Shown: in pieces, positions 5,292-61,020 of the stretch
Position numbering within the stretch: position 1 is the first letter of the stretch
How the letters are laid out: each line of letters starts with the position of its first letter
NCBI RefSeq assembly: GCF_932294415.1
Contig: NC_065535.1
Coordinates: forward strand, 91,590,862 to 91,654,861
Reading direction: 5' to 3'
Source of the DNA: Quercus robur
Taxonomy: Eukaryota > Streptophyta > Magnoliopsida > Fagales > Fagaceae
DNA length: 64,000 bases
The notes under the pieces: generated by a model
The model's input: the letters and a program-made list of their open reading frames with translations, nothing else
Databases searched by the model: none
What the model was told of the DNA's origin: nothing
Program-made: the position numbers and the translations under genes

Positions 5292-5292
<1 letters not shown>

Positions 5293-5339
<47 letters not shown>
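5293..5339. repeat. (TA)n microsatellite in DUF761 leader
   Basis: About 23 TA dinucleotides lie between the probable TATA box and the start codon of the DUF761 gene. Confidence 0.9.
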
Positions 5340-5342
<3 letters not shown>

Positions 5343-5390
5343 CAACTTTTTCCAACACAAGCTTATATAACTCTTGGTGTTTCATCTTTC

Positions 5391-5786
5391 ATGCAATTCC
5401 ACGACATGGGCAAAGACAAGTCTTCCTTGCTAACACGCCTAAAGAGGGCAGTGAAGAAGGTGAAGTTTCTGATAGATTTTAGCATGAACCGGTGGCATCT
5501 AGCTTCGGTGCTTGGCCGTGCTTCTTCGAGCAAACGAATAAGCTTCAATGACCGACCGGGCTTGAGGGCAGCTTGCGACGATGATACAATATATTCTGAT
5601 GAATCAGGAGGCTCTTCATCAAGATCAGGGATTCAGAGGACTATGAGTTTTCCATCCGAAGAAGATGTTGATAAGAGAGCAGATATGTTTATTGCTAATT
5701 TCCATCGTCAACTTCAGCTAGAGAGACAAATCTCACTAGAGCTTCAATATTGCCGGGGAAATAGCTTCAAGTCAATCTCTCCTTGA
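5391..5786 (+). CDS. DUF761 (cotton-fibre-type) small protein
   Basis: Single-exon reading frame of 131 residues. If translation starts at the second methionine (5406, MGKDKSS) the protein is 126 residues. The N-terminal third is basic (RLKRAVKKVKFLIDF), the middle is serine-rich, and residues about 95-123 form the C-terminal motif DKRADMFIANFHRQLQLERQ. That motif is the hallmark of Pfam DUF761, seen in 'cotton fibre expressed' proteins. The function of the family is not established; some members alter growth when overexpressed. No signal peptide or confident membrane segment is seen. A TATA-like box at 5185-5196 and a (TA)n tract lie upstream. Its 3' flank is duplicated at 1-2130, so this is probably one of at least two tandem paralogues. 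I am sure of the domain and less sure of the start. Confidence 0.88.
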   Translation: MQFHDMGKDKSSLLTRLKRAVKKVKFLIDFSMNRWHLASVLGRASSSKRISFNDRPGLRAACDDDTIYSDESGGSSSRSGIQRTMSFPSEEDVDKRADMFIANFHRQLQLERQISLELQYCRGNSFKSISP

Positions 5787-6902: not shown

Positions 6903-7554
6903 TTAGAGCATCCACAGCAGACGTTGTAAAAAAAATGCCATTTTACAACATCAAACACCTACTTTATTATTTTACCACATCATTTTACAACATCTCATTT
7001 ATCAGATGTTTTATACTTCAATTTTATACATTAAAATAATATTTACACCACATTAAAATAATATATTAAATTCCTCCCCTCATCCTCATCATTATCATCA
7101 ACAACCACCAGAAAAATGGTTGCCGCCACAATCACCAGGAAAAAAAAAAAAAAAAAAAAAAACACATCCACCAAAATCAACCCACAACCGCCGCCAAATC
7201 CACCACCAAAACATAAAAACAAAGACAAAAATAGATCAGAAATCATCATCATCATCAATCACCACTACAACAACAACCACAACAACAACCAGAAAAATTG
7301 TTGCGGCCACAATCACCAGGAAAAAAAAAAAAAAAACCACAACCACCAAAATCAACCGCCGCCGAATCCACCACCAAAGCAGAAAAACAAAGACAAAAAC
7401 AGATCAGAACAGAGATCGGCACCACCACCGATTCGCCCACCAGTCCACCCACCCACTACCACCGATTCGCCCACCGCCATAACCCACAACCCGAACCCAC
7501 CCACCACCGTGCCTAACCTAACGCATCAAAATTAAAATTTTTTTAAAAAATAAT

Positions 7555-7588
<34 letters not shown>

Positions 7589-8224
7589 GCACCATACAGT
7601 GTTAAGAAAAGCGAGGAAGGTGTTGAGTTCAGGCGAAGCGGAGAGGACGCGGTGGAGGGAGCGCGTGGCGACGAACCCCAAATCGAAAGGCTCAGAAGAC
7701 GAAGGGACCATACGGAGCGTGTACTCCACGCCCATGAAGAACAGCAAACCCATGGCGAACAAACAAGGCACCCAATGGAACTTCGCCACGTGCGCCACGT
7801 CCTCCGCCGTCCACGTCATAAACGACGCTCTCTTTTCCTTCTCTTTCTTTACAACCATGTCCCTAGTAACGCCGCCGCCGTTAGTCCTGGTACCGGTAGT
7901 AGTGTGCCTTTTGTTGAGAGAACGAGAAAGAGAGAACAGAAAAAGAGAGAACAGAAAAAAAATGGAGAGGCGGAGAGAACGAGAAAGGGAGAACAGAAAA
8001 AAAATAAAGTGAAGAGAGAGGAGAGAGAAAAGAGAATAAAAAAATAATAAAACTTATACCATTTTCGTCCGTACTGTTGCAAATTTGCAACGGTACTGTT
8101 CATATGTGGTATAATTTTTACCATTTGGAACATTTGATAAAGCTCTGTTTTTGTGTTTGGTGTGCTAAATGTGCCAAAAATTTGACATTTGGCACATTTA
8201 GCACATCTGCTGCGAGTGCTCTTA
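6903..8224. mobile_element. Non-autonomous PIF/Harbinger-type element carrying a host gene piece (Pack-type)
   Basis: The element spans 6906-8221 (1316 bp) and is flanked by TTA at 6903-6905 and 8222-8224. The terminal inverted repeats are GAGCATCCACAGCAGACGT at the left and, read inward from the right, GAGCACTCGCAGCAGATGT. A 3-bp TTA duplication with such ends is typical of PIF/Harbinger and Tourist-type elements. The other copy of the local duplication has the uninterrupted site (gatgctcaggatgctac, near 1531-1547). No transposase is present. Inside are an AT-rich left arm, a duplicated CCACCA-rich block (about 7108-7250 and 7288-7410), a ROD1-like gene fragment on the minus strand, a purine-rich block, and two hairpins near the right end: gtactgttgcaaa/tttgcaacggtac and tgtgctaaatgtgccaaa with its exact complement at 8188-8205. 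Confidence 0.85.
7595..7910 (-). pseudogene. ROD1: Captured N-terminal fragment of ROD1 / PDCT
   Basis: On the minus strand this stretch reads as about 105 codons with strong resemblance to the N-terminal part of plant phosphatidylcholine:diacylglycerol cholinephosphotransferase (ROD1/PDCT). Recognisable pieces are ASFMTWTAEDVAHVAKFHW, LLFFMGVEYTLRMVP, SSSEPFDLGFVATRSL and HRVLSASPELNT. The first transmembrane segment is included. The match stops after LNTV, where the real protein continues with the rest of the membrane domain and the catalytic lipid-phosphatase-like motifs; none of these is present. It lies wholly inside the Harbinger-type element at 6906-8221, is much more GC-rich than the surroundings, and has no promoter or downstream exons of its own. 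I infer gene capture by the transposon. The reading frame is still open over the captured part, which suggests a fairly recent capture. It cannot make a working enzyme. Confidence 0.82.
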
Positions 8225-14557: not shown

Positions 14558-16997
14558 AGACTTTATCTTATGGCTCTTTTGAAGAACCAGGGTGATTTTC
14601 AGGCAGTTTCAATTCTATATGATCAAAACTTGAGGTACAAATTGGATTATAAGTTGAGGAGTGTTAAATTTGATGAGGTAAGAGTTTGCTAACAGGTCTC
14701 TGAAATTTGGATCGGCAAATGAAAATTATAGATGCAGAATATGTTGGATGAACGTATGTAAAAGTTATTATAACTTACGTATGATGTTCATTAAAGAGAA
14801 ATTTATGACTGATTTGATTAACTTTAATTTGGTTGAGTAAAATGATGGACATTATGTGGTATTAGTTGCCACCAACTGGTATGGTCATCATCAAAGAAGA
14901 AGCTGCCCCATGCAACAAGTAGCCTGCAGTGTGTGTGTGTGTGTGTGTGTTAGAGAGAGAGAGAGAGCATGACTAATGACTGGTGCTCGCATGGAGATTT
15001 TGGAGCAATTATCGTCACATTTATCATAAAATGTTAGAGAAACAAATCTGGAAGGGGAGCAGTTTCATTATGTCCTGTTAAAATCAGGCTAAAGTGCACA
15101 TTATATCAAATATATTTGGATTGGAAAAACTAGTAAAATTTCATTTGAATAAATTTACATATGTTGCAAGTCTCATGCAAAAACTGTAGATGCAGAAAAT
15201 TCATTCAAATAGCTAGTTTTGTTTTTGCAAATCTCTGTCTGTGTTGCTGACATTTTGCTAATGTTCATAGGGTTTCAACTTTCTACTCCTTTGCACTTAT
15301 TATAAAGAAGAGTTCGTTCAATAAAGAATAAAAAGAGACATTAGGAATAAGCATGATTAAGGAACGGTGATCACGTGGAATATTCAAAGCAAGCCACCCC
15401 ACATTTATGAGGAAACTGTGCTATCTATTACTTCTCATAGGTATTTTTCATCAATAAGTCTTGAGACATAACAAATTTCACAATACTTTTCACAAGTAAT
15501 AAGGGCTATTTGCATCACTATTTCACGACACTGCAATACCAATTGACGTGCCAAAACCAATTAGTTTGTTTCATAACTATTTCCCACCCCTGCAATCTCT
15601 GTCATACAAATGTAGAAACATCCGGTGAATTCGCGATGCTGCAGTACCAATGGAAGTACCAAAGCCAATCCTTTAAAAGCGCGAATGTATTTGCAAATGC
15701 ATCATCACCATCCTTTAAGTAAAGTATGGGAAACTCGTTTCTTAAAGCAGTAAGTCTGAAAACAAAACACTTCTAGTTCATTTTATAATAATATGAGAGC
15801 TATTCCTCAAATATCTCAATGACTTTTTAGTTGGCTTGGTGCTGAATTAATAATGATAAATGGAGGAAGAACAACAAAGAAAAATTGATTGATGTTCTTC
15901 CTTTAGCACAGGTCACAACCCAATAATGGAGCTAAAAGTACCAAAATTTACTTAGATCACTATGATTTTTCTATGGATAATTAGAAAGCATTTTTTTTCT
16001 GGGTCAAAGGCATTGCTTTATGTTCAAGTATGGTGAGCAGCAAGTAAGCTGAAGAACTTGAAGCACACCATGTTCATGCAAAGATACCTAAATTACGAAA
16101 AGTTGACCAAATTCACTATTTGGGTTTTGGCAATATGCAAAGCTTGACTTCAAGAGGTGTAGCGTAGCTAACATTAGGCTCAGCTCCACTACCGTCTAGG
16201 CGTCTCCCTAACTTTTGACATTGATTATGAAATTTGCTTAATTATTGCCCTCTATTAAGGAAAAGAAGAAGCTATTAAAAAGACCGAAAACTCCTTAAAT
16301 TAAAAAATAAACTAGGTGGTACAAGAAATTATATTAGTGCTTTTGCAATTATACAAAAAGTAAGATAAAAGATTTATAATTTAAGTTTCACTTATCCTCC
16401 ACCAATCATAGTATGCTATGTGTTTGATTTTTTTTTTTTTTTTTCATTTTATAGTTTTGTTATTTTATGAGAAAATTCATATGAATACATGACAAATTAT
16501 AAATTATGGAGCATAACATGAAGTGAAAAATTGTAATCTAAATTTAGGGAACTAGTTGAATACAACTTCGACAATAATTTGATTTAAGCACTATCAGTGA
16601 AATCCTATCAAAATTATGAAGTTGTTTGGGGGAATTTTTTTTTTAGAGATAGGTAGATCATGGATAAGAGAGGTTGGATTCAAACTTCAAACAACAATAT
16701 ATTATAAAATATCACAAAGGATACCATTACCACTTAGTTATCACTTTAACCCTAATTTAACCTATTCTTATTGTACTATTTTATACATTTAGAATATTTG
16801 CATTAATATATACGTTACATATAAACTTTTCTCAAAAAGAAAAAGGACACCATGGTAAATTCGTTCACTCCATTTGCTTTTTCCACCCTCACGTTTCTTG
16901 CAAGAGGAAAAGTCAAAAAATGCTAGCCCCAATACCACGAAATTCACAACTAATGCGTTACATTTAAGAAAGTTTGGGACTTTATTATGAATAACAC
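14558..16997. other. DPMS3 3' flank and GT31 upstream region
   Basis: After the DPMS3 3' untranslated region there is a compound (GT)n/(GA)n microsatellite at 14931-14968. The rest is mixed AT-rich sequence without a recognisable gene. A T18 tract lies near 16427. No clear TATA box could be assigned to the GT31 gene; tattatgaataacacatgg directly precedes its first ATG. Confidence 0.5.
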
Positions 16998-18047
16998 ATG
17001 GATTTCAAAACCCTCTCGCAAAGCACAACCCATATTCAGATCCATATAAACTCTAGAGGGTTCAACTTCAAGAACCAAATAATGATGAAGAGTGCAAGGC
17101 TGAATGGGCGACATCGTTTCATAATTTCTTCTTTCTTCTTCATCATGTTCCTTTGTGTCTTAGCTTCTATCAATGAAGTCCGATTTGATAGCTTCTTAAA
17201 GTTTGGTCAGTGTGCTCTAGCCAACGTGCCCTCACACAATTCATCGTTAGAAAACAATATTGTAGCTTCAAATTCTTCTTCTTCTTCCTCGGATGAAATT
17301 CGAATACTCATCGGCATTCTAACACTTCCGGATCAATACCAACGCCGCCACTTCCTCCGACTCATCTATGGAACACAGTCTCCATTGGGTGCCAAAGTTG
17401 ACGTGAAGTTTGTCTTTTGCAACCTAACAAAGGAAGACCAAAAGGTACTCGTTGCACTAGAGATAATGCGTTATGATGATATCATAATCCTCAACTGCAA
17501 AGAGAACATGAACAAGGGTAAGACTTACACATACTTTTCAAGCTTGCCAGAAATGCTAAATGATACAAATAGTCCTTACCCTCCATACCATTATGTCATG
17601 AAAACCGATGATGATACTTACTTTAGGTTAAATAGCTTGGTAGAGTCTTTGAGGCCATTGCCTAGAGAAGATTTGTACTATGGTTATGTTATTCCTTGTC
17701 GTAGCATGGACCCTTTTGTGCATTACATGTCTGGAATGGGTTATATGATTTCTTGGGATATAGTGGAGTGGATTAGGGATTCTGATATTCCAAAGAATCA
17801 CCTGGAAGGGCCTGAAGATAAGGTTTTTGGCGATTGGATTCGAGAAGGGCATCGTGCTAAGAATAGGTACAATGCTAAGTGGTCTATGTACAATTTTCCC
17901 GAGCCACCCACGACATGTACACATGAGCTTTGGCCAAACACGATTGGTGTTCATTTGTTGAAGACGCAAGAGAAGTGGATTCGGACATTGAAGTATTTCA
18001 ATGTCACAGATAATTTGAAACCATCTAAATTGTATCATATACCTTAA
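16998..18047 (+). CDS. GT31 family beta-1,3-galactosyltransferase-like protein
   Basis: Intronless frame of 349 residues. A second in-frame start (MMKSARL, residues 29-30) would give about 320 residues and a shorter cytosolic tail, and may be the true start. A single hydrophobic segment at about residues 41-58 (FIISSFFFIMFLCVLASI) indicates a type II Golgi membrane protein. The luminal part carries GT31 features: IRILIGILTLPDQYQRRHFL at the domain start, the metal-binding DDD at residues 204-206 (VMKTDDDTYF), YMSGMGYMIS and a GPEDKVFGDW stretch equivalent to the ED-containing acceptor or base motif. Several Asn-X-Ser/Thr sites lie in the stem. The family transfers galactose (or GlcNAc) in beta-1,3 linkage on glycoproteins and arabinogalactan proteins. 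The exact acceptor cannot be told from sequence. It resembles what I recall of Arabidopsis At5g57500, next to VDAC4, which matches the neighbour here. Confidence 0.9.
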   Translation: MDFKTLSQSTTHIQIHINSRGFNFKNQIMMKSARLNGRHRFIISSFFFIMFLCVLASINEVRFDSFLKFGQCALANVPSHNSSLENNIVASNSSSSSSDEIRILIGILTLPDQYQRRHFLRLIYGTQSPLGAKVDVKFVFCNLTKEDQKVLVALEIMRYDDIIILNCKENMNKGKTYTYFSSLPEMLNDTNSPYPPYHYVMKTDDDTYFRLNSLVESLRPLPREDLYYGYVIPCRSMDPFVHYMSGMGYMISWDIVEWIRDSDIPKNHLEGPEDKVFGDWIREGHRAKNRYNAKWSMYNFPEPPTTCTHELWPNTIGVHLLKTQEKWIRTLKYFNVTDNLKPSKLYHIP

Positions 18048-19204: not shown

Positions 19205-19640
19205 GTTAGCATCAAATGTTATTAAAAAAATTATTATTTTAACACATCAAAAAGTTATTTTATCTATTTTAACACATCACTTTACAATATATTCTACATC
19301 ATATCTTTTATTTTAAGATTACAACACATTAAAATAATTTGAAACAAACCTCATCTATATTCAAAATTTAACAAAACAAATATATTTTATCATTTTTCGG
19401 TCCCATATGATGAAGAGAGGTATAAAAAGAGAGGGAGAGAGAGAGAGAGAGGACATGGGGATGTGATGTTGGAGAGAGAAAATTCAATAAAAATTACCAA
19501 AATATTTTTAGCACATATAACCGTATCATCTTATTATTAGACCAACTTGTAGCAAATGCCAAATTTATTTGGCATTTGACACATCTCATGAAGGTGATTT
19601 TTTGTGTTTGGTGTGTTAAATGCTAATTTAGCATTTAGGT
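19205..19640. mobile_element. Harbinger-like MITE, relative of the 6906-8221 element
   Basis: The left arm (aacacatcactttacaatat and surrounding) and the right arm (ttttgtgtttggtgtgttaa) correspond to the arms of the 6906-8221 element, without the central gene piece. A hairpin aaatgccaaat/atttggcattt lies at about 19556-19580. The right end abuts another MITE, so the terminal repeat and target duplication cannot be read. A (GA)n run lies near 19431-19453. Confidence 0.6.
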
Positions 19641-29600: not shown

Positions 29601-30485
29601 ACCCAATTAGCCTACTTGTATGTTAATTTTAACATTTATTTTGGATAGTCTGGTGGACACTGGACATTGCAAATTATTCTCAAATTAGCATGTCGATTGC
29701 AAACGTTTATAATTTAGGGTGGACATAACAAATGACCCCATGGCTAGGTGGATAGTCAAAATGTGTGTGTGCACACTAATTTGTTTCAACAAGGACCTTT
29801 TCTGGATTCATGCTTGCATTTTAGGTAACCTACACAAGGCCAGAAAAGGAAATGAGTGTATGTGTATGTGCGTGTGCACTTCTTTGTTTCAACAAGGACT
29901 AATTTGGCAGATAAAATTCAAAAGTATTTATCAGCTTAGATTAAAGCTTTTTACTGTGTCTTTTCTAGAAGCTTATTAAATGTTCTAAACTGATGCTGAG
30001 TAAAGTTAGATAAATGGAATTTCAATAAATCTTAGAAGGTCCTTTTGAGTTTTGTCTGTTTCCTGCTGACATACTAGTTTCTTTTCTTCCCTAACAACAG
30101 TTTCTGGATGGATATATTTTAATTACAAATGCAAGGTTAGTCTTGCTTGTAACCTGGAATATGTGATTGTTTATGCAGGACGGACAAAGGACAGGTACTG
30201 AAGGCATCTTATGTTCATCTTGTGAATCCTGTCAATGGGACAACAGTTGGTGCTGAAATGTCTCACAGATTAAACACCAATGAAAACAGTTTTGCAATTG
30301 GAAGCTCTTATGCACTTGATCAGTTAACTGTGGTAAAAACAAGATTCTCTGACAATGGGAAAGTTGCGATGCTATGTCAGCGTGAATGGAGGCCTAAGTC
30401 ACTGGTTACTTTATCAGCTGAGTATGATTCAAAGGCCAGTAATGCAGCCCCGAAGTTGGGTCTTGCCCTTAGTCTCAAGCCTTGA
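23618..30485 (+). CDS. VDAC4: Mitochondrial outer membrane porin, VDAC4-like
   Basis: Six coding exons: 23618-23666, 24459-24526, 26839-26949, 27105-27191, 29123-29331 and 30179-30485. All have GT-AG borders, the phases match, and the product is 276 residues, the usual plant VDAC length. It begins MATSPASFSDIGKRAKD (the N-terminal amphipathic helix), continues as a 19-strand beta barrel and ends REWRPKSLVTLSAEYDSK...LGLALSLKP, with the eukaryotic porin signature region around YALDQLTVVKTRFSDNGK. Among Arabidopsis porins as I recall them it fits VDAC4 best (SPA.F.DIGKKAKD, KIPDHKSGKLDVQY, SSIGLNPTPLL). VDACs pass metabolites such as ATP and ADP across the mitochondrial outer membrane; Arabidopsis VDAC4 is needed for normal growth. 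The introns hold five sense copies of SINE family A (a sixth is antisense in the leader intron), a poly(C)17 tract and an organelle-derived group II intron piece. Confidence 0.96.
25112..25212 (+). mobile_element. SINE family A copy
   Basis: ggccaacgagttctagttca, then gtaagagcaaggtggaggtg and aggtcgtgggttc, then gcatgtgtaattactaataa. The box-A-like and box-B-like parts are in tRNA order. It lies in VDAC4 coding-region intron 2, sense to the gene. Confidence 0.65.
25691..25707. repeat. Poly(C)17 tract in a VDAC4 intron
   Basis: Seventeen cytosines are followed by tcccc and a (CA)n run. It is the second long poly(C) tract in the window, again inside an intron on the sense strand. Confidence 0.95.
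26147..26262 (+). mobile_element. SINE family A copy, diverged
   Basis: caatgagctctgccacaaat, then gggtggacgagggttaggtc and ggtttcaaaacccactggtg, then tagttacttacaatcc. Sense orientation in a VDAC4 intron. Confidence 0.6.
26632..26765 (+). mobile_element. SINE family A copy, box B eroded
   Basis: gccaatgagctctagctcaa, then atggcacttccttccctttt and aagaacaaggtggatgttta. The 3' part is diverged. Sense orientation, about 75 bp upstream of VDAC4 exon 3. Confidence 0.65.
27850..27950 (+). mobile_element. SINE family A copy
   Basis: ggccaatgagctctacctca, then gtaagggcaaggtgaggata and gtcttgggttcaagacccac, then tgggtgcaaaaaaggc. This copy has the best-preserved box B (gggttcaagaccc). Sense orientation in a VDAC4 intron. 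Confidence 0.7.
28190..28500 (-). other. Organelle-derived insert with group II intron domain V
   Basis: On the minus strand, 28243 down to 28210 reads GAGCCGTGTGAGATGAAAGT then CTCATG, which matches the domain V hairpin of plastid group II introns. The last bases of the expected hairpin are changed. The flanking text up to about 28500 (for example gagatgatcat, tctttcgac-like blocks and the direct copy-like inverted gattgagaaa elements) also has the look of plastid intron sequence. I infer a nuclear insertion of organelle DNA within the VDAC4 intron between coding exons 4 and 5. I cannot say which organelle intron it came from, nor exactly where it ends; it could extend down to about 28060. 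Confidence 0.65.
28830..28915 (+). mobile_element. SINE family A copy, internally deleted
   Basis: cagtgagctctagttcaaat, then ggtacctccttcccttgtaa and gaggcaggtgggtgcatgtg, then taacttaccaatcaaaaaaa. The box B segment is missing. Sense orientation in a VDAC4 intron. Confidence 0.65.
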
Positions 30486-35200: not shown

Positions 35201-36330
35201 TTAATTTAATCATCTTCATACTCTACCATCGATTACGTTTTCCGTAGTAATTTCTACTTAAATTAAACGTGTGGTTATTTAGCTCTAGCTCAAAAGGCAC
35301 CTCCTCCCCCATAAGAAAGGGTGGAGGGTAAGGTCTTGGGATCAAAACCAACTTTTAGTGCGTCGTGTGTGTTTAAATTCACATAAAATTTTTTTTTTTT
35401 TTTAAAGTAAAAAACTTGGAGATGCAGAAAGTGAATGACGAAATATGTATTTCTTTCCAATAAAGAGGCATTTTTTTTTTCTCTACAATTGAAGTACTTC
35501 ATATTTCATTCCTTTTCAATCTTTTTGCTCTTTCCTTTTACCTTTTTGTGGCTGTGCTTCTTACCTTTTCCTTAGGATATCATTTCCAATGTAGGTTTGA
35601 TAGTACATCCCAATAGGGGGTGGCCATACTTGTTTAATTTATCCCTCTCATCATTTTATTTCTCAGTTAAATCTAATATGTTATACTTGGCTTGTTACCA
35701 ACATTCTTTTCTATAATCTCCAGTCTGAGGTTTTTGCTGTTGCGTTTGCGCTTCTTGCCGCTGGTGCTGTAATTCTGACATTGAATGTACTACTACTGGT
35801 AAGTTTCTCTCTCATTAACTTCTTTTTTGGGTATTAGATTATCAGCTTCCTTCCTGTTAGACATCCAAATTCTTGAAATGTAGTCTATGATTGTGTGCAA
35901 AAAGATTATGATAGTACCCAAATGTCGATAAATTGAATCTAGGAGATATGACAGCATGCATATGTCCTGTAATTTTTATTTTTTATTTAGAGTAGAAAGA
36001 AAAAAGTTAGTCTTCATACATAGTAAGAGGTTGACTTTGGCTGTCATTTGTTTACAATCCTTATTTCAGGGTGGACACATAATCTTCTTCCAAAGTCTAA
36101 GTTTGCTGGGTTATTGCTTGTTCCCTCTGGATGTTGGAGCTATAATCTGCATGTTGAAGGACAATGTGATATTGAAAGTGATTGTGGTATCTGTGACGTT
36201 GGCATGGAGCTCCTGGGCTGCATACCCTTTCATGAGTTCAGCAGTCAACCCTAGGAGAAAAGCCCTTGCACTCTATCCTGTTTTTCTCATGTATGTATCT
36301 GTTGGTTTTCTCATCATTGCCATTGATTAA
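32226..36330 (+). CDS. YIP4: YIP1-family Golgi/TGN protein, YIP4 (YIPF6-like)
   Basis: Three exons, 32226-32738, 35724-35798 and 36070-36330, joined in phase 0 give 282 residues. The cytosolic N-terminal half starts [20 protein letters not shown] and is rich in proline and serine (PARPPSPPR, a run of prolines near residue 80). A conserved linker [20 protein letters not shown] and [19 protein letters not shown] leads into about five membrane segments that make the Yip1 domain; the last ends at the C terminus ([11 protein letters not shown]). The start and linker agree with Arabidopsis YIP4a/YIP4b. Those trans-Golgi proteins work with ECHIDNA in secretion of pectin and hemicellulose and in cell elongation. 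Intron 1 (about 3 kb) carries two SINEs and a hAT-like MITE. The first exon is strongly GC-rich. Confidence 0.95.
33663..33775 (+). mobile_element. SINE family A copy in YIP4 intron 1
   Basis: aagctctagtttaaatgaaa, then cagcaaggtggagggtgaaa and ttgtgggttcaaaacctact, then ggttgcttgtgttattactg. Sense orientation. Confidence 0.65.
34508..34703. mobile_element. hAT-like MITE in YIP4 intron 1
   Basis: Perfect 8-bp duplication TTCTGTTA at 34508-34515 and 34696-34703 flanks a 180-bp element. The termini are GGGGTTTGACTTACCTCCAA at the left and, read inward from the right, GGGTTTGGCTTACCTCCAGT; the inverted similarity continues for about 35 bases (tactttttta). An 8-bp duplication fits the hAT superfamily. 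It has no coding capacity. Confidence 0.85.
35280..35390 (+). mobile_element. SINE family A copy in YIP4 intron 1
   Basis: agctctagctcaaaaggcac, then ctcctcccccataagaaagg and gtggagggtaaggtcttggg, then atcaaaaccaac. Sense orientation, about 340 bp upstream of exon 2. Confidence 0.65.
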
Positions 36331-42617: not shown

Positions 42618-44510
42618 CGGCATACGACCACAAGCCCATTTATCTTGGGCCCAGGCCAAAATAGGACCATAAATATTGTCAAGCCCAAGCCCAGTGTCAT
42701 GACCAGCTCATTTTTCATAAGCTTGGCACGTGAATGCCACCCACGTGTAGGATGGTCGATAGGTATCCATGTGATGGGCAAAAATGCCTCAGTAGCTTGG
42801 GAGTGTCACGGGGAATCACGCTGCCAAGCAATCTTTTGGAGGCTAGCGCCAGTTCCAACATCCTTGACACCATTCCCAATAAAGCATATTCCTTGTCAAG
42901 AATAATCAATTTGGGCCCCACCCACACGAGTGGAATCAAAGGTAATCATGATTCCCCCACTAACCTAAAGCTATAAGCAAGAGAAAGCAAGGAGGTAATG
43001 GGGTTGGATATGAGGGAGAGAGAGAAGAGAGAGAAAAACACATCTTTAGCTTGTGAGAGCTTAAGGAGGGAGGCTAGGTTGTGCAAGGCAGTTCTTTCTT
43101 AAAGTTCGGCTAGGAGCTACCTAAAGTAGAAAACCCATTACCCACTATATAAGTAAATTATGTGTCCAGCCCAAGGTTCGATCTAACAAGGAACATTGGG
43201 TACGCACAATTGGCGCCGTTTGTGGGAATCTCCTACATAGCTGTAGCTCTACCGAGGTTCAAGTGAGGGGGATGTCTAAATGGCACTCAACAAGTTACGC
43301 CGCTAATAGGTCTAGAGGCTCTTATTGGGGTTTTAGCTGGCGGGAAAAAAGGTATAAGAGAAATGAGGATTGAAGACGTGAACGAGGTAGGGAACATTGT
43401 GTTTCGAAGGAGGGATCGTCCCACACGTACCGGTCAATGTCGGACATCCCCGAACATGAGCATCATGATAGGAGGGATCAAGAGCTAGAACGCCTGTGTA
43501 GGATGGTGAGGGACTTGGAGTTAGAAGTACGAGGAAGGCGTCGATGAAGAAACCGTGATGAACATGCTAAAGGGTCTGTAAGTGTGAAGGGCAGTCATAG
43601 AGAAGCATCCCGTCAGTCTGGTTCCCATTGTTCTAGGGATCAGTCTAGGGATTACGTCGACAGAGGCTCGGTTTCCCCTGAAGGGCGAAGGCCCCAAAAT
43701 GCCGCGTTGGGCGCTATGAGCTAGGCATTACATAAAGCTGCTCAGTCACCGTTTTCGACAAAGATCAAACGAGCACCTATGCAGAGCAGATTTACTAGAC
43801 CCCCATTTATTTCTTATGATGGGAAAATAGACCCAGTACAACATGTAAGCCATTATATCCATATGATGCCCCTTCATAATCATAACGATGCATTGATGTG
43901 TAGGGTGTTTCCCTCTAGTCTCGAGCCCACTGCTTTGAGGTGGTTCAACAAGTTAAGGAATGACTTGATTCATAATTTTGCAAAGCTAATTCAAGAGTTC
44001 GGGGTCCGGTTTATAACCTGTAGCCGGGTACCACAACCAATGGACGCGTTGTTGTCTATGAAGATGGGAGTCAGGGAAACCCTTCAGAGTTACACTAGTA
44101 GGTATTGGGAACTGTACAATGAGATCGGTGGGGGTAATGAAAAAATCGTAGCAAGCACTTTTAGGCTGGAATTGCCTGAAGACTCTGAATTACGAGAGTC
44201 GCTGACGAGGAGACCTCCAAATATGAGGCAACTTTTAAGGCACGTTAAGGAGTATAAAAAGCTTAGAGGATGATCAGCAGCAGAGTAAGGGTAAGGCACC
44301 GACCGTGCTGCAATATTCGAAAGAGTCCCGACAAGGGGGTTTTCAGCCAAGACCTATAAGGGATTTAAGGATCCAAGAACCCAGTGCTCGGGCAGGGGAA
44401 GTCAGTGTGACGTTTAAGGAACCCGTGCACAAAATTTTGGACTGAATAAAGAATGAGTCATACTTTCGGTGGCCGAGCAAGATGGGGGGTGACCTATTAA
44501 GAAGAAATCA
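42590..44510 (+). mobile_element. Ty3/Gypsy LTR retrotransposon fragment (5' LTR, primer site, gag)
   Basis: A fossil. A stretch of about 600 bp ending near 43206 with gtacgcaca looks like a 5' LTR. It is followed by a primer-binding-type sequence, ttggcgccgtttgtggg, at 43209-43225. The leader and the start of gag follow. An open frame at 43779-44273 (164 residues) matches the retrotransposon gag domain. No protease, reverse transcriptase, integrase or second LTR is present, so the element is incomplete and cannot move; the region before the gag frame also looks decayed, with several breaks. Age cannot be calculated without a second LTR, but decay suggests it is not recent. Confidence 0.8.
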
Positions 44511-45960: not shown

Positions 45961-47160
45961 TTAGAGCATCAGCATCAAAGGATGCTATCCTATTTTATTT
46001 TACCATCTCAAAAAGCCACTTTATTACTTATACCATACCATTTTACAATACCTCCCACATCCTAAAACTCTATTTTTATTAAAATATTATTTTTAAATAT
46101 TTCTTTTTTTTTTTTTCTAACCGTAACTTTTGGTTTTCCTGGGCTTTTCCAAACCCATCACCACACACACAAACACAAACCATCAAACCTTAAACAGAGC
46201 CAACACACACTGCATCAAACCAGTTGGAGCCAACGATCAACCAGAAAAACCCAACCGTCAAAAATACCCAGAAAACGCCGATGATCAACCCAGAAAAACC
46301 CAGCGGAACAAAAACCCAGAAAAACCCAAGCCACCACTGCCCATTGCTCACCAAAATCCCACCGGAACAAAAACCAATATTAAAAAAAAAAAAAAAAACC
46401 CATCGAAAACCCAGAAGAACCAGCCAACCATGCGATGACCCACGTTGATCTCCACCAAACCCATCACCATGACCCACACCGATCTCACCATGACCTCGCC
46501 AGACCCAAACACTGGCGATCTTTGACAACCAACAACCCACTTCAGCCACAACCCAAACACCGGACCCAACCACGATCCACGACCCACAATCCACTTCAGC
46601 CATACCCACCTCTTCCTTTAAGAACTGGTCACAGCAAAAAAAAAAAACCCAGATCAACCCCGATCAAAACCCAGACACCGCCGTCGCTAGATCAATGTTT
46701 CCTCCATCGTTGATCAACCCAGATCAACCACCAAAATTCCATCGGAACAAAAACCCAGACATCGCCAATTGACCCCGATCACAACAGGAAAAAAAAAAAA
46801 CCCCATATCAACCCCGATCAAAATCCAGACACCGCCGCCACTGCCGTCGCTAGATCAACGTTTCCTCCATCGTTGATCAACCCAGACCAACGTTTCCTCC
46901 ACTGTGATGTGTGATGTTGATGTTGGGAGGAGGATGATATTTGGGTTTGAAGAGAGGAGAGAGCAGATGAGAAAGAGAGAATGAAGAGAGAGAAGATAAC
47001 AAAAATAATGAGAGAGGAGAGAGAAATTTTGAGCTTAAAATATTATTATTATTTTTACAATACTGCTACAGTGCAATTCTAAAGATAGAATTGCACTGTA
47101 TCAGTATTGCAAAAAAATTTGCAATAACTATCTTTAGCATTCTCTGATGCAGTGGGTTTT
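45961..47160. mobile_element. Larger Harbinger-like non-autonomous element
   Basis: Begins TTA then GAGCATCAGCATCAAAGGAT. The left arm resembles that of the 6906-8221 element (taccattttacaatacctcc). The right end, ttagcattctctgatgcagt, is an imperfect inverted match, so the end near 47155-47160 is approximate. A strong hairpin, caatactgctacagtgcaat paired with attgcactgtatcagtattg, lies at 47070-47117. The interior (46130-46900) is GC-richer and built of repeats of aaaacccag and gatcaacccagatcaac; a block around 46650-46730 recurs at about 46806-46890. No known protein was recognised inside. Confidence 0.65.
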
Positions 47161-49972: not shown

Positions 49973-50028
49973 TTATCCATATACATCCAAAAGACCATTC
50001 CCAAAACCTAAAACAAAATAAGTAGAAA

Positions 50029-51594
50029 ATGAAGGAATATTGGACCTCCTTGGCTTCCCTTCTTGGCGTTTTGGCCTTTTGCCAAAGCCTCCTCCAAGTA
50101 GTGTTCCCACCTGAACTCCGTTTCGCCACTGTCAAACTCTTCTACCGAATGTTCCACTGGGTCTCCTCCCACTGCTACTTTGACATAACAGAGATCGACG
50201 GTGTCAACACAAACGAGCTCTACAACGCTGTCCAACTCTACTTAAGCTCATCAGCCTCCATCACTGGCAGTAGACTCAGCCTCACACGCGCACTCAACTC
50301 AAGCGCCATCACCTTTGGACTCTCCAACAATGACAGCATAGTCGACACTTTCAATGGCGTCTCAGTTCTCTGGGAACACGTTGTCACTCAAAGACAATCC
50401 CAAACCTTCTCATGGCGACCACTACCCGAAGAGAAACGTGGGTTCACTCTTCGAATCAGGAAGCGAGACAAGTCTCTCATTCTCGATTCTTACATGGACT
50501 ACATCATGGAAAAAGCCAACGACATTCGAAGAAAAAACCAGGATCGTCTTTTGTATACTAACTCGAGAGGTGGTTCGTTGGACTCGAGAGGCCATCCTTG
50601 GGAGTCTGTACCGTTTAAACATCCAAGCACATTCGATACTTTAGCCATGGATCCTATAAAAAAGCAGGAGATCATGGATGATCTTAAGGATTTTGCGAAT
50701 GGCCAAGGTTTTTATCAGAAAACAGGGCGAGCTTGGAAAAGAGGGTACCTGCTTTTTGGTCCACCTGGGACTGGAAAGTCTAGCATGATTGCTGCTATGG
50801 CTAATTATCTTGGTTATGACATTTATGATTTGGAGCTGACTGAGGTGCATACTAATTCTGAGCTGCGGAAATTGCTAATGAAGACTAGTTCTAAGTCTAT
50901 TATTGTGATCGAAGATATTGATTGCTCACTGACTTTATCGAATAGAGCCAAGAGTAATAATGTTAGTACTAATGGTATAAGGAGTAGTTATGGCGATATG
51001 GGTGAAATGCGCGGTGGTGGTGGCGGCGAGGATGGTGGGAATACAAGCATTACACTTTCAGGGTTGTTGAATTTTACTGATGGGTTATGGTCATGTTGTG
51101 GGAGTGAGAGAATTTTTGTGTTTACTACTAATCACATTGAGAAGCTTGACCCGGCATTGTTAAGGAGTGGAAGGATGGATATGCATATTTTCATGAATTA
51201 TTGTTCTTTCCCGGCATTGAAGATACTTTTGAAGAATTATTTGGGGTTGGATGAGAGTGATTTGGATGGTGTGGTTTTGAAGGAATTGGAAGGTGTGGTT
51301 GATAAGGCTGAGATGACTCCTGCTGATGTTAGTGAGGTTTTGATTAAGAATAGGAGGGATAAAGGGAAAGCAGTGAGGGAATTGTTGGAGGCTTTGAAAG
51401 TGAGAGCAAGGATTAGTGAGAAGAATATTGTGAGGTTGAGAGAGAAGGGTTCAGAGTATTTGGAAGAGGAGCAAGAAAAGAGGGCATTGGAGAGTCCTAA
51501 AGAAGGGTGTGAGTTTGAGAAAGAAGAAGAGAGTGATTGCAAGAAAGGAAATGATGAGAAACAAGAGAGTAATACTACTACAATAGAGAAATGA
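50029..51594 (+). CDS. BCS1-like AAA-ATPase (plant AATP/OM66 family)
   Basis: Intronless frame of 521 residues. A hydrophobic N-terminal segment (about residues 5-26, SLASLLGVLAFCQSLLQVVF) is followed by the plant 'AAA-type ATPase, N-terminal' region (ELYNAVQLYLSSSASITGSR). The AAA domain has Walker A GPPGTGKSS at residues 244-252, Walker B IIVIEDIDCS at about 290-299, a glycine-rich insert (GGGGGEDGG, about 327-336) and the second region of homology FTTNHIEKLDPALLRSGRMD at about 365-384. The C-terminal 40 residues are charged and low in complexity. The length fits the closest Arabidopsis homologue I recall (At5g57480, next to VDAC4). Such proteins sit in mitochondrial or ER membranes and many respond to stress or hormones; the substrate is unknown. 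All catalytic motifs are intact. The first ATG with a full family N-terminus is used. Confidence 0.96.
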   Translation: MKEYWTSLASLLGVLAFCQSLLQVVFPPELRFATVKLFYRMFHWVSSHCYFDITEIDGVNTNELYNAVQLYLSSSASITGSRLSLTRALNSSAITFGLSNNDSIVDTFNGVSVLWEHVVTQRQSQTFSWRPLPEEKRGFTLRIRKRDKSLILDSYMDYIMEKANDIRRKNQDRLLYTNSRGGSLDSRGHPWESVPFKHPSTFDTLAMDPIKKQEIMDDLKDFANGQGFYQKTGRAWKRGYLLFGPPGTGKSSMIAAMANYLGYDIYDLELTEVHTNSELRKLLMKTSSKSIIVIEDIDCSLTLSNRAKSNNVSTNGIRSSYGDMGEMRGGGGGEDGGNTSITLSGLLNFTDGLWSCCGSERIFVFTTNHIEKLDPALLRSGRMDMHIFMNYCSFPALKILLKNYLGLDESDLDGVVLKELEGVVDKAEMTPADVSEVLIKNRRDKGKAVRELLEALKVRARISEKNIVRLREKGSEYLEEEQEKRALESPKEGCEFEKEEESDCKKGNDEKQESNTTTIEK

Positions 51595-59830: not shown

Positions 59831-61020
59831 GCTTCGCTTTAATTTTTAAGTATTACATAGATGCCTCTATTAAATAAGAACCGATTGTTTTAGCCAAAAA
59901 AAAACAAAACTAATTTTTTCAATAGTATATAAGAAGTAATGTTTTCTATTGTTATATAAGAAAAAAAAATTATCAATTAAATTAATAGTAAATATGACAT
60001 TTTATAAAAGCTAACACATCACTCTTACTTTATTATTTTATTTTTTATCCATCCATTTATTAAAAAAATTAATAATTATTGATTTTAAATAATTTCTCTA
60101 TTTATTTTATTTTATATATCACAAAAAAAGAGATTAAATAAATTAGTTAAAATGAAACCTTATTAAAGTGAATACATCACAATTATTATTATATATCTTT
60201 CTACATCAATCCATTTTATATAGAAAAACAATAATATTTTTTATTGAGCTATTTAAAATGATACCTTATAAAAATGAAGGCATTACAATTATTATATTAT
60301 TCATTTTACTTTTTGTCCCAGATAAAAGAAAACCATCATCTAGAACTTAATCTAAGTTGATACCAACTTGAATTTGCACAGTGTGCATTGGCACCCTCAC
60401 AATATATTTTATAACATCATAAAGTAATTTGTAAATGATATCAATCCCTTGTTTATTCGTTGGTCATGGAAGAGATGGGGATCAATCCCTTAAGAAATCC
60501 TTAGGAATTTCTTGTACATTGGAGGACCCTTCATCATCATATATTTCTGTTATGTTATCTACTAATTGGAATTATTAAGGTTTGAATTTGTGCAGTTGAG
60601 GCATCACAATGGAAGTACTTTTTGCCTTGTTTTTTTTTTTTAAGGTTTAGCCATGCTATGTATAGGTTTATGTAGATTGTACAATATTTTTGGTCATGTA
60701 TTTTAAAGTCTTAAAGCCTTTAAAGGTATGGATTTGGGTTCATACTTCATATAAAATCAAAATTATATATATGGAATTCGGGTTATGACATTTTAGAATG
60801 GTTATCCACAATTAGCCCAAATTTTTTTTTTCCCTTCTTCAACCTCTAAAAGGCTTTCATCTGGCCCGAATTGGGAACAAGGGGCTTTGATAATTTAAGA
60901 AATTGGGCTGACCCAATGCTTCCAAAGCTTTTATAAATGATTTCTTTGCTTGAAATTAGAAATAGTTGAATTCTAATTTTTCTTTCCTTCCTCCAAAAAA
61001 AATGGGCTGACCCGTGGTGA
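59831..61020. other. AT-rich region upstream of the SET gene
   Basis: No gene seen. The last 200 bases become more GC-rich as the promoter of the SET-domain gene begins. Confidence 0.5.

Follow-up and report, generated by a model that had tools for sequence, protein, structure and literature searches.

A transposon at 6906-8221 and its family

The window analysed here is a 64,000-nucleotide stretch of Quercus robur contig NC_065535.1. Pfam matches mark exons of host genes at 5292-5786 (DUF761), 16995-18047 (galactosyltransferase), 30153-30485 (eukaryotic porin), 35932-36330 (Yip1 domain) and 50026-51594 (AAA-ATPase of the At3g28540 type), and a retrotransposon gag fragment (PF03732) lies at 43725-44273. 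Positions 6906-8221 are occupied by a transposon of 1316 bp, read from the sequence by TTA at both borders and by its inverted ends. It carries, in minus orientation, a piece of ROD1 (PDCT), a gene of membrane and oil lipids. The features are as follows:

6903-6905, target-site duplication TTA, left (from the sequence; matching TTA/TAA flanks in 16 of 19 relatives)
6906-7509, + strand, 5' transposon part, comprising the terminal inverted repeat GAGCATCCACAGCAGA, an A/T-rich subterminal stretch and a CA-rich stretch (relatives align)
7508-7509, left junction, 2-bp microhomology CG, common to donor and relatives (from the alignment)
7508-7918, - strand, captured ROD1/PDCT piece (411 bp), identical to the donor in 405 of 411 columns
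7508-7597, - strand, ROD1 intron 1, 90 bp, beginning with the splice donor GTATGG (from the donor alignment)
7598-7918, - strand, part of exon 1: 107 codons (LNKRH...LNT), donor codons 25-131 (donor alignment; Pfam PF24788)
7916-7918, right junction, 3-bp microhomology GAG, donor versus the element's GA-rich stretch (from the alignment)
7916-8221, + strand, 3' transposon part, comprising a GA-rich stretch, an A/T-rich subterminal stretch and the terminal inverted repeat (relatives align)
8161-8205, subterminal palindrome with two perfect 18-nt arms (from the sequence)
8222-8224, target-site duplication TTA, right (from the sequence)

The two ends, GAGCATCCACAGCAGA and GAGCACTCGCAGCAGA (reverse complement), agree at 13 of 16 positions, and at 19 of 26 when extended to 26 bp. 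In an unfiltered scan, the 12 best TTA pairs were mostly A/T-rich and did not include this one. After filtering for complexity it was the best 26-mer pair among 95,268; an equally good pair occurred in 2 of 20 Markov shuffles (161,000-178,000 pairs each), and over 16 bp the pair was at chance level. Taken alone, the inverted pair is thus marginal evidence for a transposon. The ends were accepted nevertheless, because of what the source genome contains (785,749,727 bases in 42 contigs). The 18-base pattern TWA+GAGCATCCACAGCAG, which stands for the left end preceded by TTA or TAA, has 477 exact occurrences in the genome, while its reversed control has none in the same 786 Mb. Together with the relatives described below, this led us to drop a chance origin of the inverted ends.

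A genome search with the element returned at least 128 matches, a lower bound since 40 of 1511 candidates were scored. Full-length relatives are present, with left parts up to 97% identical to the focal element; its mismatches with the nearest ones number 9 in 525 on the left side and 8 in 260 on the right. Over the 5' part (element 1-604) relatives align at 82-97%, and at 87-92% over all or pieces of the 3' part (element 1011-1316). The CA-rich stretch of the 5' part contains an internal duplication (7099-7241 and 7280-7409, 84.6%). Matching TTA or TAA flanks were seen in 16 of the 19 relatives fetched and read, but not in L016, L019 and L024. The borders, duplications and inverted ends given in the preliminary description are therefore borne out, and sibling ends, which it had proposed to look for elsewhere in the genome, proved abundant. 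As a separate observation, an interior stretch of about 165 bp is 98-100% identical in most of the close relatives L010-L017, although divergence among their left parts reaches 10%; a recent shared origin or conversion is possible.

Two distant relatives lie inside the window, at about 19209-19640 and 45964-47158, both oriented as the focal element, with the 5' and 3' subterminal stretches arranged as they are there. The former scores 70.7 bits against the 5' end of the focal element and 46.4 bits against its 3' end; the highest scores in 300 shuffles were 41.0 and 38.3, respectively. It is MITE-like, about 430 bp long, and has both subterminal stretches without the CA-rich interior and without ROD1; it has degenerate ends, at which no matching duplication could be made out. 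The copy at 45964-47158 is about 1.2 kb long, with a preceding TTA, a possible TTA after it, and a CA-rich interior and GA-rich stretch of its own. A further relation at 59990-60040 was set aside as a probable A/T-rich chance match (E 0.02).

To which superfamily does the element belong? A 3-bp TTA/TAA duplication, as in PIF/Harbinger, is present at the focal element and in the relatives counted above. Mutator-type elements have longer target-site duplications, of about 9 bp. Here the flanks (GATGCTTA before, TTAGGATG after) agree over TTA alone, and on this ground a Pack-MULE identity was rejected. A Pfam scan of the three element ORFs gave PF24788 as the sole domain above cutoff, which upholds the earlier statement that the element lacks a transposase. 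The genome has at least 177 matches to the transposase domain PF13359 (150 of 895 candidates scored). At six of these loci, family ends on both sides of the transposase were not found; a lone weak similarity to the 3' end, 35 bp long, was seen at one of them (L033). Among the left ends listed (contigs C1 and C2, and one on C3), none lay by eye within 10 kb of the transposases listed. The PIF/Harbinger label is thus based on the duplication and the ends, because no transposase-bearing family member was found at the loci examined. The element does show the features that define Pack-TYPE elements, here Pack-PIF: terminal inverted repeats with a duplication, a host-gene piece with its donor, no transposase, and a cluster of similar elements.

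The ROD1 piece, its donor and its age

The donor was found in the same genome on another contig, C5, where positions 28419349-28419758 match window 7508-7918 in 405 of 411 columns, with 5 mismatches and 1 gap (98.5%). It reads as a three-exon ROD1/PDCT gene without stops, exon 1 measuring 393 nt from the ATG, and we take it to fit the Arabidopsis ROD1 protein. This structure fits published ROD1 genes, three exons being reported in Lepidium (399, 138 and 327 nt; PMC9901296) and in pennycress (PMC8100250). The minus-strand ORF of the element matches PF24788 (AtPDCT1_2) with 33.1 bits (cutoff 27) over profile positions 1-36 of 160. The preliminary description had placed about 105 codons of ROD1 at 7595-7910; identity and strand were right, and the extent has to be corrected to 7508-7918, with 107 codons and 90 bp of intron. 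The ROD1 start codon is absent from the piece, the ATG lying 24 codons beyond the joint. The intron part contains a poly-T stretch, which reads as poly-A on the plus strand. Since intron sequence and its splice donor were captured, DNA was copied and not mRNA.

Searched against the genome, the piece was found at four sites: the piece itself, the C5 donor, a partial match of 82% on C38 and one of 35 bp on C3. No family ends were found in about 3 kb around each of the latter two (3.1 kb for C38), and among the four places only one copy sits inside such an element. The C38 sequence (L031, G000:C38:46502950-46503090) is an old partial ROD1 with the end of exon 1 and intron 1, about 80-82% identical to C5 and interrupted by stops. 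A tblastn search of viral and prokaryote contigs found no relatives of the piece, as expected for a plant gene, and the PDB gave no useful match (best E 0.92).

Nine close relatives (L010-L018) have a CA-rich interior of 297-616 bp where the focal copy has ROD1, running from the position of the left joint to the GA-rich 3' part. Compared with the ROD1 piece at E 1e-8, these interiors gave no match except a short A/T-rich one in L017. The family interior thus occupies the ROD1 position in all nine, indicating a replacement rather than an addition.

Donor and element differ at 5 of 410 aligned bases (1.2%). Elsewhere in the element, 15 changes are private to the focal copy: 5 in the 570 left-hand columns and 10 in the 260 right-hand ones, four of these 10 sitting in adjacent columns that are apparently misaligned. 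Since the two kinds of difference are of a similar order, the capture and the birth of this copy may have been near each other in time. At each of the four exon differences (7708, 7713, 7771 and 7872) the coding strand reads A in the donor and G in the element, and every one alters the amino acid (D/G, M/V, H/R and I/V). The rest of the element shows a different pattern, with C to T or G to A making up 9 of its 15 private changes. The assembled C5 allele is thus possibly not the exact donor. Three histories would account for these four sites: a later change in the donor allele (of the C-to-T type when read on the opposite strand), copying from a different allele, or error-prone copying. The C38 copy cannot polarise them, because they lie outside it.

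The minus frame across the exon part is open, from which it had been concluded earlier that the capture is young. Two plus-strand frames across this part are open as well. Neutral decay was simulated with an assumed indel rate: at 5% divergence the frame had survived in 20% of runs, and at 10% divergence in 4.5%, so that an open frame bounds the age only loosely. The conclusion of youth survives by way of the 98.5% donor identity, the open frame being a weak argument by itself; judged by this identity, the capture would be fairly recent.

Routes of capture and possible function

We consider it very probable that the locus holds a non-autonomous PIF/Harbinger-type Pack-PIF element that lost part of its interior and into which ROD1 DNA was copied by repair or fusion, the piece being a passenger. 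A family member evidently lost part of its CA-rich interior, where 411 bp of ROD1 DNA now lie, and the element would have been moved in trans by a transposase encoded elsewhere. For the exchange itself, our tentative choice, held with some doubt, is a swap that began with a break or gap inside a single element. Repair synthesis, error-prone and guided by the microhomologies, would have moved over to the ROD1 locus and then returned to the element, and no insertion near the donor would have been needed.

Fusion of two neighbouring insertions is a less likely route, and we regard it as rather improbable for this element. Here two elements would have flanked ROD1 exon 1, their outer ends would have been used as one pair, the inner ends would have been deleted, and the composite would have moved. 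According to PMC8903248, this model was proposed for Pack-CACTA, extended to Pack-PIF, and is the one favoured for Pack-TYPE elements. The layout of the oak element, a 5' part, a gene piece and a 3' part, is as the model predicts. It requires, however, that elements had inserted within exon 1 and intron 1 or close to them and later disappeared, leaving no trace. A comparison of 9.9 kb of the donor locus with the focal and 19 related elements (stretches of at least 55 bp) found no family ends and, apart from the piece, no family stretch. This relic-free locus leans against fusion but is compatible with it, because PIF elements are able to excise cleanly. The position of the piece, which is that of the relatives' interior, is explained directly by a swap during repair.

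Could the piece act on ROD1? The preliminary description had suggested a truncated protein and antisense control, which is pure speculation. It is highly improbable that antisense or small RNA, or a short membrane protein, would alter ROD1 activity. An identity of 98.5% over 411 bp would permit pairing with ROD1, and the open minus frame would give 108 aa from an internal ATG. Against this, the ROD1 start codon is missing and none of the four exon differences is silent. The catalytic triad and the C2/C3 domains, which presumably fall in exon 3, would be outside the captured exon 1. These features of PDCT are described in PMC4486708. With four of four exon differences changing the amino acid and one element copy found, the ROD1 piece is most likely a passenger without function, from which the enzyme could not be encoded.

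Two other origins were rejected with near certainty. A processed, mRNA-derived ROD1 copy inserted into the element might be suspected from the long homopolymer that borders the exon piece, but this homopolymer belongs to the donor's intron, as poly-T on the sense strand, and the 90 bp of intron 1 past the splice donor match the genomic donor. A native, decayed ROD1 gene hit by a transposon, to which the exon sequence with its open frame might point, is just as implausible, since the piece lies inside the element, its match to the C5 donor begins and ends there, and exons 2 and 3 are not found in the window (E 1.3 at best).

Comparison with known systems

The original reading, a ROD1 capture by a Harbinger-type element, is supported, and each of the three findings it had named as refuting it was looked for and did not turn up. 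It had been added that gene capture by PIF/Harbinger elements is much less documented than that by Pack-MULEs, which holds only in part. PIF transduplication was described in grapevine in 2008, where Pifvine-3 carries host exon and intron pieces (PMC2528002), and Pack-PIF elements were reported in 2022 by Gisby and Catoni, including the maize Zm-Pack-PIF cluster 18 (PMC8903248). The oak element therefore adds a case to a known process. Our literature search, covering titles and abstract openings among the matches listed, found no report of a ROD1/PDCT capture, and the identity of the gene suggests a possible link to lipid unsaturation.

With Pack-MULEs the oak element shares gene fragments within a non-autonomous DNA transposon, but its duplication is TTA. 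It resembles Pifvine-3 as a PIF-superfamily element carrying exon and intron pieces of a host gene; Pifvine-3 elements, however, retain the canonical coding regions of PIF, and their 5' stretches reach 3.5 kb (PMC2528002), whereas the oak element measures 1.3 kb and has no transposase. The closest likeness is to Zm-Pack-PIF cluster 18, for which PMC8903248 gives a gene piece of 163 bp, 97% identical to its donor, in 72 copies. Both are small non-autonomous PIF elements with TTA/TAA, a gene piece between conserved ends, and piece-free relatives. In maize the piece lengthens the element, from 402 to 535 bp on average, while in oak it replaces the family interior; in contrast to the 72 maize copies, the oak piece was found in one copy, with an intron and with joints bordered by microhomology, in a different plant and with ROD1 as the donor. 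Few Pack-PIF cases have the donor, the piece, empty relatives and both joints within one genome, and this combination makes a swap with microhomology testable against a fusion of neighbours.
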